Source of the DNA: an uncultured Bacteroidia bacterium
GTDB lineage: Bacteria; Bacteroidota; Bacteroidia; Bacteroidales; Prolixibacteraceae
Direction of reading: 5' to 3'
DNA length: 64,000 nucleotides
NCBI GenBank assembly: GCA_903918045.1
Contig: CAIXCY010000234.1
Span: 1-64,000 of the forward strand
Shown here piece after piece: positions 33,292-36,213 of this stretch. Both the position numbers and the translations under genes were made by a program. The notes under the pieces are model-generated. The model was given only the letters and a program-made list of their open reading frames with translations, was not told the DNA's origin and ran no database searches. The first letter of the stretch is position 1, and each line of letters opens with the position of its first letter.

Positions 33292-34467
33292 ATGGTCAAA
33301 ATATTGGTTATTGACGACGAAAGGAGTATACGTAATACGCTTAAAGAGATTTTGGGATTTGAAGGTTACTCGGTTGAGGTAGCTGAAAACGGAATTCTCG
33401 GACTGGAAATAGTCAAAAATGCTGATTTTGATATCATACTTTGTGATATTAAAATGCCTGAAATGGATGGAATTGAGGTTCTTGGAAAGATTCTGGAAAT
33501 TAAACCCGAAACGACTGTTGTGATGATCTCCGGGCATGGGAACATTGACACAGCAGTAGAAGCCATAAAGAAAGGGGCATTTGATTTTATTGTTAAACCC
33601 TTGGATTTAAACCGGCTATTAATTACGATACGAAATGCAGGAGATAAGTCGCTTTTGGTGAAAGAGACTATCGTTCTGAAACAAAAGATCTTTAAGCAAT
33701 ATGAAATAATTGGTGAATCAACACTGATTAAAAAAGTGCTTGAAATGACTGACCGTGTTGCCCCCACTGATGCCAAGGTTCTGATTACCGGGGCTAACGG
33801 AACCGGGAAAGAACTTGTTGCAAGACGCTTGCACCAATTATCAGCCCGCGCAGAAGCCCCGTTCATTGAAGTTAACTGTGCTGCAATTCCTTCAGAATTA
33901 ATTGAAAGTGAATTATTTGGCCACGAGAAGGGAGCCTTCACCTCGGCAATAAGACAACGTAAAGGCAAATTTGAACAGGCCGACGGAGGGACACTCTTTC
34001 TGGATGAAATCGGTGATATGAGCTATTCTGCCCAGTCAAAGGTGTTGCGTGCCTTACAGGAAAACATCATCACGCGTGTAGGAAGTGATACGGCTATTAA
34101 AGTAAACGTAAGGGTGATTGCTGCGACTAACAAAGACCTTGCCGAAGAGATTAAAAATGGCAATTTCCGCGAGGATTTGTACCATCGTCTGAGCGTAATA
34201 CTGATAAATGTTCCATCACTTGAAAGCCGAAAGGAGGACATACCCCTGTTAGCCAGCTATTTCATCGAACAGATTTGCAGCGAATATGGTCAGCCCCCAA
34301 AAGATATTGAACCAGAAGCAATTGCAGAGTTACAAAGCCATCAGTGGACCGGAAACATCCGCGAATTCCGGAATGTAATCGAACGATTAATAATCCTTTG
34401 CAATAAAACAATAACCCGGGAAGAGGTGAGACTTTATGCACCACCGGGAAATTCTGCTATTGAATAA
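33292..34467 (+). CDS. Sigma-54-dependent response regulator without DNA-binding domain
   Basis: A 391-residue NtrC-type protein. The receiver domain (1-120) has phospho-acceptor Asp52 in LCDIKMPEMDG and VKPLDL. The AAA+ domain (about 137-370) has Walker A GANGTGKELVARRLH, the sigma-54 contact motif as GAFTSA instead of GAFTGA, Walker B GGTLFLDEIGDM and the arginine finger region FREDLYHRLSV. It ends about 20 residues after the AAA+ lid with no Fis-type helix-turn-helix. It could act from solution, as some FlgR-like activators do. The cognate histidine kinase is not in the window. Confidence 0.9.
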   Translation: MVKILVIDDERSIRNTLKEILGFEGYSVEVAENGILGLEIVKNADFDIILCDIKMPEMDGIEVLGKILEIKPETTVVMISGHGNIDTAVEAIKKGAFDFIVKPLDLNRLLITIRNAGDKSLLVKETIVLKQKIFKQYEIIGESTLIKKVLEMTDRVAPTDAKVLITGANGTGKELVARRLHQLSARAEAPFIEVNCAAIPSELIESELFGHEKGAFTSAIRQRKGKFEQADGGTLFLDEIGDMSYSAQSKVLRALQENIITRVGSDTAIKVNVRVIAATNKDLAEEIKNGNFREDLYHRLSVILINVPSLESRKEDIPLLASYFIEQICSEYGQPPKDIEPEAIAELQSHQWTGNIREFRNVIERLIILCNKTITREEVRLYAPPGNSAIE

Positions 34468-34756
34468 TTTCGGATGAAAAATTTCGCTTAATGAAAAGCT
34501 GCTCCCTTCAAATCGATTCGCCACTTATCTTAAAATGGCAAATCCGGGAAGGTCAAACTTCGATTTATAGTACGATTTTCGAACAAGAGTTGTGTGTAAA
34601 TAGAAACCTGGAAAAACCGATGAACAATATATTTTTTAAAAATAGTCGCCAAAATATTAATTTTCAGCCATATAGACGCCTTGAAGTTATTAACAATTGT
34701 TGATAATAATGGTTGAATTTAAGTTGATACATAGTTGATACAAAAACCTTAAAATA
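34468..34756. other. Intergenic stretch, no convincing gene
   Basis: AT-rich sequence between the sigma-54 activator and the non-coding RNA promoter. A 70-codon frame at 34491-34703 exists but has no recognisable domain or conserved-looking pattern, so I do not call it. Confidence 0.4.
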
Positions 34757-34789
34757 GTTGCAATCAGGGCTATTTCTGTTGTATATTTG
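34757..34789 (+). promoter_or_regulatory. Promoter of the 550-base non-coding RNA
   Basis: GTTG at 34757-34760, a 21-base spacer and TATATTTG at 34782-34789, a perfect -7 box. The same GTTG / TATATTTG pair occurs in front of the HU gene. Transcription is expected to start near 34795. Confidence 0.6.
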
Positions 34790-34794
34790 AAATA

Positions 34795-35346
34795 TCAGGT
34801 AAGCGATAAAAGGTTACTCTGAAGTAGTGGAGACGGGGAGAGACTCTTAGCTGAGTAAGGAATCGGATCATTCAAACCCTCGGGTTTGCACGACGGAAGG
34901 GTCAGAGGTTGGACGAAAGGAGGTGATCCGATCGAACAATCAGCCGGAAATAACGCCAGTCGTTCATTAGAAGGTTGAGTTTAAGACCGAAAGAAAAAAG
35001 AGACGAAAGTTTTTTGTAATAAATTCGGAGAACAGGAAAACTGAAAAGCCAGTACTTTCCATGCAGATGAAGAACCGATCGAAAGAGAGGAACCGCCCTG
35101 TATGCTCAAAACACTCCGTCCGGGAAAGTTAACCGCAAGGAAAACTGAAGGGACAGCAGGAGGATAATGCCTTAAACAGCAAAATCCGAAAGCGATGGGT
35201 TGCAAAATTAATCTGCACAATGCGCAAGCACAAAGGAGATCAAATTGCAGCCAACCACGATAACAGTAGCCTGACGCCACAAGTGAAGCAATTCATTAGC
35301 GACGAAATGGGAACAACTTGAAAGAGTGGTTCCCATTTGTGTTTTT
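34795..35346 (+). ncRNA. Large structured non-coding RNA candidate, family unknown
   Basis: About 550 bases bounded by a consensus promoter and an intrinsic terminator, purine-rich and without a convincing ORF. Many local helices can be drawn: TTACTC (34814-34819) with GAGTAA (34853-34858); ATCGGATCA (34862-34870) with TGATCCGAT (34924-34932), enclosing the hairpin CAAACC-CTCG-GGTTTG (34873-34888); AACG-CCAGT-CGTT (34952-34964); CCGAA (34987-34991) with TTCGG (35024-35028), enclosing an A6/T6 helix; and TGC-GCAA-GCA (35221-35230). The hexamer CGAAAG occurs five times, as expected for C-GAAA-G tetraloops. It lacks the core signatures of RNase P RNA, tmRNA, 6S and SRP RNA. Strand and limits are well supported; function is unknown. 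Confidence 0.6.
35305..35346 (+). terminator. Terminator of the non-coding RNA
   Basis: AAATGGGAAC (35305-35314) pairs with GTTCCCATTT (35329-35338). After one A-G mismatch the stem continues ACTT/GAGT and is capped by a GAAA tetraloop. A T5 run follows at 35342-35346. It may also serve the convergent ThuA-like gene. Confidence 0.8.
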
Positions 35347-35361
35347 ATACCTTTCTGTAAC

Positions 35362-36213
35362 TTACTTCTGCTTGCCCAACCACTTCAGAGCATCAATCAC
35401 AAGTTTATTCTGAATATCATTTGTAAAAGTTTGCGACAGATCCCTGTTCATCTTCCCTTCATAATCAATATCATTATGCCCCATATTGATATAAAGCATC
35501 CTGTATTTTCTGTTAGTCCATACAACTGGATAGTCCCCTTTATGCCAGATTTCCCATGCCTTCGGACCCGTTCCTAATGGGAAACTCGATGGGTCGATGG
35601 ATAGTAAAATATCGATATCCGGGTTCTTCCTCAAATCATTCTTCCAGCTGTACCATTCATTTGGCGAAGCTTTGAATGTAGGGGGCAAATGCTGAGACGC
35701 CGGATGATGAGGCCTCTCCACTCGCAATATCGCGGCTGTTGGACGCCAGGTATTCCCTTTATATTCACCGGCTCCCAAAAACTCATTGTGATACCAATTC
35801 CAGTTCTGAGGAAAATCGGACGGAGTAAGGGCAAAAGCTGCAAAATGAAATCCCATCCATGCCCCTCCACCCTTCATAAACTGCTCAAAGGCAACACGCT
35901 GTTCTTGCTTATCAGGACGCGAATCGAGGAAAAGGACAATTTCATAATTTTTTAAAAATTCAGAATTCAGGTTCTCCCAGTTTTTGGTTGAATCGTAAGA
36001 AAATTGCATCTTTCGGGCAAGACCTGCAAACCAGCGATTGGCTTCATGAACAAAACTGACATGAGCCTTGTCGTTTATACCCGTATAAAAACCAATTACC
36101 CTGAATTTGGGTTTCAGAGATTGTGCAGAGAGCGAAAAACTAAAGAGCATCAGGAGCGCTAAAAGATTCAGCCTGATTAAGAAGGTTATTTTACAACAAT
36201 TTATCCGGATCAT
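35362..36213 (-). CDS. Exported ThuA-like domain protein
   Basis: A 283-residue protein with a signal peptide (IRLNLLALLMLFSFSLSAQ, cleavage near 31) and a ThuA / class I amidotransferase-like fold: FRVIGFYTGIND at the start of the domain, NYEIVLFLDSRP, FMKGGGAWMGFHFAAF, and PVVWTNRKYRMLYINMGHND near the end. ThuA-like proteins in Bacteroidota are usually exported and occur with sugar-metabolism genes; the catalytic role is unproved. The gene converges on the non-coding RNA and lies 54 bases downstream of the creatininase-like gene. Confidence 0.8.
   Translation of the reverse strand: MIRINCCKITFLIRLNLLALLMLFSFSLSAQSLKPKFRVIGFYTGINDKAHVSFVHEANRWFAGLARKMQFSYDSTKNWENLNSEFLKNYEIVLFLDSRPDKQEQRVAFEQFMKGGGAWMGFHFAAFALTPSDFPQNWNWYHNEFLGAGEYKGNTWRPTAAILRVERPHHPASQHLPPTFKASPNEWYSWKNDLRKNPDIDILLSIDPSSFPLGTGPKAWEIWHKGDYPVVWTNRKYRMLYINMGHNDIDYEGKMNRDLSQTFTNDIQNKLVIDALKWLGKQK

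Follow-up and report, generated by a model that had tools for sequence, protein, structure and literature searches.

The window, i.e. the whole stretch of 64,000 nucleotides that we analysed, carries on its + strand a structured RNA of about 550 nt at 34793-35346, delimited by alignment and covariation, with the 5′ end placed by the promoter position and the start of the closing helix P1. The RNA gene lies between a sigma-54-type response regulator gene (33292-34467, +) and a convergent ThuA-domain gene (35362-36213, −). The original prediction of a free-standing RNA at 34795-35346 had the ends correct within a few bases. The control region reaches upstream to 34687, and a conserved upstream palindrome, tandem copies and a wide length range are features beyond what had been predicted. 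In the response regulator, we detected a sigma-54 interaction domain and no DNA-binding domain in Pfam at E 0.001.

A Bacteroidota-type promoter of the form TTG-21-TATATTTG occupies 34758-34789 (+), with the TTG at 34758-34760, a 21 nt spacer and TATATTTG at 34782-34789. It was annotated from the sequence, a generic scan and its conservation in the aligned copies; the generic sigma-70-type scan found 4 sites at the locus against 5.1 ± 2.1 by chance, i.e. no excess. At the other end, the terminator (35305-35346, +) consists of the hairpin P26 (35305-35338), which is capped by a GAAA loop, and of the GTGTTTTT tract behind it. The outer terminator helix is paired in 100% of the cells of 23 aligned copies in a consensus structure of 73 pairs, and P26 as a whole in 91% of the cells in a structure of 131 pairs; a generic consensus terminator scan did not have the P26 hairpin among its calls. 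Since neither the promoter nor the terminator was singled out by the generic scans, the support for both is their conservation. The predicted GTTG-21-type promoter and the GAAA-capped terminator were thus both borne out, the former being present and kept among the homologues.

We also looked for coding potential. No + strand ORF of at least 40 aa lies wholly within the RNA. An 83-aa + strand ORF begins at 35326, and the minus strand carries ORFs of 99 aa (34981-35280) and 42 aa (35208-35336). When the window copy was compared with 22 others, 108 gap lengths were 1 modulo 3, 29 were 2 modulo 3 and 14 were multiples of 3, a gap shared by several copies being counted once for each of them. Nor are the longest stop-free stretches the same from copy to copy. 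We rejected a protein-coding reading, as the reading frames are not maintained among the copies, in agreement with the earlier view that no credible gene is present.

Upstream of the promoter lies a palindromic element, TTATTAACAATTGTTGATAA (34687-34706, no strand assigned), a putative regulator binding site. The palindrome TTATNAACAATTGTTNATAA occurs with 0 mismatches here in the 5.36-Mb draft genome of the window, where this is the sole site with 0-1 mismatch; one other site has 2 mismatches. Of 43 copies selected by RNA sequence similarity alone, i.e. without using the palindrome, 40 have its core 70-125 nt upstream with no more than one mismatch (34 of them exactly), as compared to 0.6% in shuffles. 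The distance from the core to the RNA in this set was mostly 88-91 nt, and 100-102 nt in others. The palindrome is also present at 15 of 21 loci from other families (L131-L151, picked by a model of the 3′ domain), mostly 92-94 nt before the 5′ motif of the RNA; it was not found at 3 of the 43 copies and at 6 of the 21 loci. Because the genome has no second site with fewer than 2 mismatches, the sequence suggests that the palindrome serves a regulator dedicated, or nearly so, to this RNA gene. A literature search for the letters of the palindrome gave no match.

Past the palindrome, the window has three GTTGA-type half-sites with 11 bp spacing, starting at 34712, 34723 and 34734 (34712-34740, +). 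In the profile of relatives (54 copies), two GTKNATA boxes stand at +20 and +31, counted from where the palindrome core starts, i.e. 13 bp and then a further 11 bp past the right half of the palindrome; the copies in the upstream profile had been selected by end motifs and palindrome, which partly builds in the invariance of those letters. The palindrome and the boxes thus stand at near-helical spacing in front of most copies, in an arrangement almost unique in the genome.

Next, we analysed the secondary structure. The single-sequence fold has an MFE z of -3.2, with none of 100 dinucleotide shuffles as stable. For the comparative folds, we used an alignment of 23 full-length copies (A2), omitting the near-duplicate L013, the partial copies L010, L017, L022, L027, L028 and L030, and a second set of cut-off tandem copies; another alignment (A4) contains 28 of 31 copies. 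RNAalifold on A2 gave 73 pairs, 44 of them with double changes. In this structure, 95.4% of the cells are paired, with 147 compensatory cells against 39.6 in shuffles that ignore kinship (0 of 500 reached this) and 12-41 in slid controls. With RIBOSUM scoring, RNAalifold on A2 gave 131 pairs in 26 helices, and 87.9% of the cells are paired. Here, 85 pairs and 278 cells show a double change, as compared to 52.5 and 98.9, respectively, in shuffles (0 of 500, kinship again ignored), and sliding the partners by 1-3 columns left 59-93 compensatory cells. These counts are to be read with two points in mind: both consensus structures were derived from the same alignment on which covariation was counted, and many aligned copies come from related genomes, hence are not independent. 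The compensatory signal is nevertheless strong in either structure, and the many hairpins of the original prediction reappear as 26 helices with covariation. One of its helices did not survive. The nine-pair helix closing a 70-base domain (5′ strand about 34862-34872) exists only in the single-sequence fold, whereas the two structures derived from the alignment have 34863-34869 paired with 34830-34836.

The overall plan comprises P1, which joins the ends, followed by P2, a 5′ domain (P3-P7), a central part (P8-P17) and a 3′ domain (P18-P24), with the hairpin P25 and the terminator hairpin P26 outside P1. All these elements are on the + strand. The helices of the 5′ domain covary (34816-34902). 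The central domain at 34905-35116 is the most variable part; its helices covary with 72-100% of the cells paired. The 3′ domain begins with P18-P22 at 35118-35193 (GUCCGGG...GGACAGC and the next hairpin), which covary and form part of the covariance model R2 described below, and continues with P23-P24 at 35198-35252 (82-96% of the cells paired). P25, between P1 and the terminator (35275-35304), has 9 of 11 pairs changed on both sides and 79% of the cells paired. Among the interior 6-mers of 131 copies, CTTCGG, CCGGAA and CGCAAG are the most enriched, and CGAAAG is enriched too. These words are UUCG and GNRA hairpin loops with their closing pairs, plus CCGGAA; by this measure of sequence, the interior is folded and not repetitive. 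The interior word GGCAAC recurs in L148, L149, L150 and L151, with a potential partner further on (GTTGCC in L149 and L151, a near variant in L148 and L150), a possible pairing.

The most constant part of the RNA is at its ends. The 5′ strand of P1, UCAGGU (34795-34800, +), pairs with the 3′ strand, GCCUGA (35269-35274, +), in 100% of the cells of the 23 copies, and this closing helix is supported by covariation. Next to it lies an internal loop whose 5′ side, AAGCGAUAAAA (34801-34811, +), has eight invariant columns in 23 copies, and whose 3′ side, ACGAUAACAGUA (35257-35268, +), has invariant columns in the alignments of 23 and 28 copies; both are nearly invariant. The loop sides AGCGAUAA and AAUAACNGUA, between P1 and P2, are almost unchanged in the aligned copies. 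Of the 21 loci L131-L151, 18 have the two end motifs in order, and at all of these 18 the four inner P1 pairs are complementary, alternating between CAAG/CTTG, CAGG/CCTG and CAGA/TCTG; these loci had been retrieved with R2, the model of the 3′ domain, and the end-motif patterns allowed one change and left the varying P1 pair free. The fourth P1 pair is G-C in 41, A-U in 15 and G-U or A-C in 2 of 58 representatives. End motifs and palindrome had served to select the 131 copies and the 58 representatives, and the invariance of those letters is therefore partly built in, whereas members of the 23- and 28-copy alignments were chosen by similarity and the palindrome was not used.

In contrast to the ends, the interior varies greatly, and the RNA ranges from about 290 to about 1,100 nt in the family. 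In 21 compact copies (284-411 nt), P1/P2 with the loop, P25 and P26 align clearly, and the interiors align poorly. The longest copies measure about 900-1,100 nt; L097 (about 1.1 kb) and L110 and L111 (about 0.9 kb) are much enlarged members with extra parts.

We then checked the distribution of the RNA. A DNA search of 61 genomes gave matches in 24, i.e. in 15 of 18 genomes of the genus (its own included) and in 9 of 19 in the rest of the family; the 24 genomes from the order's other families had none. Full or near-full copies of the same genus are 72-92% identical, and for eight copies from other genera, which can be aligned almost end to end, the identity is about 57-62%. We built two covariance models, R1 (5′ domain, 21 sequences) and R2 (3′ domain, 28 sequences). 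Each of them matched 111 of 140 family genomes and 87 of the 103 good ones, and both combined matched 113 of 140. Some near-complete family genomes have no match with R1 and R2, e.g. all four of genus g12 (G028, G129, G130 and G131), so the RNA is not universally needed. Two of these four genomes are single contigs, and the natural contrast between genus g12 and the rest of the family, most of which has the RNA, could help to track down the regulator.

Beyond the family, 295 genomes of the order were searched with R1 (16 genomes), R2 (38) and an exact pattern of palindrome plus 5′ motif (31); a reversed control pattern had none among the matches listed. The union is 53 of 295 genomes in 27 family-level groups, with 12 genomes entering by weak matches only, and restricting it to a pattern match or an E below 1e-8 leaves 41 genomes in 20 family-level groups. 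All 10 pattern loci that we looked at further carry the 3′ motif, and 9 of 10 have a terminator-like tract by a simple expression. Copies thus exist in many related genomes, as the original prediction had called for. In 395 genomes of the phylum, R2 found the window's own genome and a marginal match in G471 (E 8.8e-4), and nothing else. We took the latter as a chance match; there was no 5′ motif in the 501 bases viewed. Diverged members outside the order are possible, because the phylum was searched by R2 alone, which missed 15 of the 53 order genomes. Finally, a pattern scan of named genomes returned at least 117 stretches. Among the matches listed, the titles were Bacteroidales, Bacteroidia, Bacteroidetes/Bacteroidota, Prolixibacteraceae or named genera including Draconibacterium, Maribellus, Mangrovibacterium, Sunxiuqinia and Tangfeifania, which belong to Prolixibacteraceae, and one was labelled Sphingobacteriia and two Chlorobiota. 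The RNA is thus present in cultured species, and Draconibacterium orientale has a complete genome.

Does the RNA belong to a known family? Rfam 15 at gathering scores gave no match in the window and none in 20 loci of other families. A permissive scan of 34600-35450 gave seven sub-threshold matches, three of them wholly inside the RNA. The best was RAGATH-8 (E 0.11, 15.7 bits against 86.7); sR2 and a group II fragment also appeared. The permissive scan of 20 loci (18 from other families and 2 from the window's family) gave four weak matches and no family twice, among them mir-722 (E 2.2) inside the RNA of L144 and CsrC (E 0.026, L131 136-341), which falls outside the RNA of that locus. OLE, ROOL, GOLLD, raiA, HEARO, tmRNA, 6S, SRP and the group II intron all are Rfam families. 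We rejected RNase P RNA as the identity, because the one RF00010 match of the genome (242 bits) is on another contig, C102; no tmRNA was found in the window. The known large bacterial RNAs were therefore not found here, as had been supposed. Table 1 of PMC2864571 lists Bacteroidales-1, Bacteroides-1, Flavo-1 and 6S-flavo as Bacteroidetes non-coding RNA motifs with Rfam models, and it gives no Rfam number for Bacteroides-2 and GUCCY-hairpin, which places these two outside the Rfam comparison. Our literature search found no description of this RNA; part of it may be listed, with no Rfam model, among the 224 candidate RNAs of a 2017 paper. By sequence comparison, the RNA family is absent from Rfam and has no detectable relative, and large ornate RNAs as a phenomenon have precedent (PMC12286853). 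We consider the existence of the RNA family almost certain.

The genomic surroundings of the copies were compared as well. The predicted neighbours, a sigma-54 activator and a ThuA-like gene, are present and recur within the genus, but they are incidental, as other genera differ. The response regulator and Ppx are the neighbours in the window's genus and also beside one copy of genus g8. Copies of genus g11 are flanked by an alpha-L-fucosidase-type gene, saccharopine dehydrogenase and DAHP synthase, and UbiD and ArsC-like genes adjoin copies elsewhere. We rejected a functional tie to a neighbour gene for this variation between genera. A constant downstream gene on the same strand, the mark of a cis-regulatory leader or riboswitch, was not found in the genera compared: downstream genes vary by genus and strand, the window has the convergent ThuA gene in this place, and the RNA itself ends in a terminator-like hairpin. 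Some genomes hold several copies. Three tandem copies each were found in G009:C92 and G001:C133, the outermost being cut by the contig ends, and the complete ones each have their own promoter and terminator. Since the neighbours vary between genera and complete tandem copies have their own promoter and terminator, we conclude that the RNA gene is free-standing. Dispersed pairs also occur, e.g. in G061 and G138. Tandem arrays of two or three diverged copies were seen at L008, L006, L085 and L081, where contig ends are often in or near the copies.

These copies raise the question of whether the RNA is a mobile or selfish element, such as an intron, a satellite or an IS remnant, rather than a host gene. 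Tandem and dispersed copies would fit such an element, as would the several copies at contig ends. However, no constant protein gene accompanies the RNA, its location changes little within the genera compared, and family genomes with a match have just one to four matches with R1 and R2. Moreover, phages and plasmids gave no match in a distant blastn search, and viral contigs gave none with one exact pattern. We rejected a phage, plasmid or viral origin on the absence of a match in any of those sets, and we regard the mobile-element reading as very improbable. The least probable reading of all is a site acting at the DNA level, e.g. one of DnaA type for replication or segregation, to which the RNA would be incidental. 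The DnaA box is TGTGNATAA, and the half-sites TGTKNATAA are one position off it. Against this, the compensatory changes select for RNA pairing, and some genomes have several copies. Control of the RNA gene by DnaA, which the likeness of the half-sites might bring to mind, was likewise not supported by our sequence scans: the dnaA locus has no TTATNCACA box and one relaxed TTWTNCACA match, and the paired-box pattern has one match in the genome, on another contig. A replication origin was rejected because the GC skew shows no clean flip at the site.

Three other readings concern what the RNA does. It might act as CsrB/RsmZ or 6S RNAs do, i.e. as a decoy or a global regulator: a dedicated regulator would turn on its gene, and the RNA would titrate RNA polymerase or an RNA-binding protein. 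GacA acts through such an upstream site on rsmY/rsmZ. CsrB/RsmZ RNAs resemble the window RNA in being non-coding genes behind a palindromic site with paralogues in some genomes, and the window RNA is purine-rich (A 36%, G 26%). However, it is longer than they are, and CsrA (PF02599) was not found in its genome, the one genome searched (a 98.8% complete draft); the control was positive in 3 of 14 genomes. GGA-type motifs are just 1.03-1.35-fold over expectation in 58 copies (GGA 1.18-fold and AGGA 1.03-fold, counted over the whole sequence with loops not separated). No single repeated loop motif stands out, the enriched words being mostly structural tetraloops, and no 6S or Csr model matches within the RNA. 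We rejected a CsrA decoy in particular, with CsrA not found in this one genome and GGA only slightly enriched; the decoy reading as a whole is unlikely, and still it is the strongest of the rivals. Ranking slightly below it is a multimer or nanocage made of RNA alone, comparable to those of ROOL and GOLLD. The length of about 290-1,100 nt, the many covarying helices and the enriched GNRA/UUCG loops would suit such an assembly, and for three ornate RNAs (OLE, ROOL and GOLLD) homo-oligomers, i.e. RNA-only complexes, are reported in PMC12286853. According to the same source, raiA is monomeric and HEARO RNA is disordered when protein is absent; an interior of greatly varying length would also be unusual for a closed cage. 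Less probable again is a new ribozyme or ligand-responsive RNA having its active site in the invariant loop beside P1. Both loop sides are nearly invariant in the aligned copies, and the end motifs containing them recur in other families despite differing interiors; yet no known ribozyme or riboswitch model matches significantly, and no consistent gene lies downstream.

We favour a trans-acting ornate RNA that serves as the core or scaffold of a ribonucleoprotein and is governed by a dedicated regulator, ahead of the decoy, the RNA-only multimer and the ribozyme or ligand sensor, in this order; for the whole mechanism, we see about an even chance. Comparison among the copies establishes the conserved sequence, the 26 covarying helices, P1 with its loop, the promoter, the terminator and the palindrome. 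The RNA is probably transcribed, regulated and trans-acting, with its function centred on the P1-side loop and the interior as a scaffold. In the proposed mechanism, a DNA-binding regulator, which the DNA site suggests, would sit on one face of the DNA at the palindrome and the boxes next to it, and thereby control the promoter of the RNA gene. The transcript would end at the P26 hairpin and fold compactly, rich in GNRA and UUCG loops. It would then work in trans, either as a scaffold or as the RNA component at the core of a ribonucleoprotein; the invariant loop beside P1 may be the functional site (binding a protein, an RNA or a ligand) and the interior may be a lineage-variable scaffold. By analogy, it would work like OLE, ROOL and GOLLD without being one of them. 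More tentatively, we picture a new Bacteroidales RNA machine with an apparently dedicated regulator, which keeps an invariant loop clamped by P1 as an active or binding site and has had the rest rebuilt between about 290 and 1,100 nt across families.

Few bacterial RNAs of such size and intricacy are known. At least 20 family-level groups have the unit of operator plus RNA, which points to a regulatory circuit of Bacteroidales that has so far gone unrecognised, and the palindrome-binding protein would be a conserved Bacteroidales regulator. The natural size variants reduce the RNA towards its core. The regulator and the function are both open to direct testing, given the cultured species, the size variants and the conserved control site.

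Among known systems, RNase P RNA, tmRNA and SRP RNA are likewise large conserved bacterial RNAs, and the window RNA has no Rfam match to any of them. Bacteroidales-1, Bacteroides-1, Flavo-1 and 6S-flavo come from the same phylum and were also found by comparison, and none of them reaches its gathering score here. The closest likeness is to the large ornate RNAs. Its great length for a non-coding RNA and its extensive covarying structure (131 pairs in 26 helices, with covariation matched by 0 of 500 shuffles) fit the general description of this class, and OLE, ROOL and GOLLD similarly are several hundred nt long with many covarying helices and a function that is unknown or poorly understood. 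Unlike them, the window RNA shows no significant Rfam match and no phage match, and our searches found it in Bacteroidales-type genomes only. It is set apart from them, too, by its constant ends, its highly variable interior and the conserved palindrome upstream.
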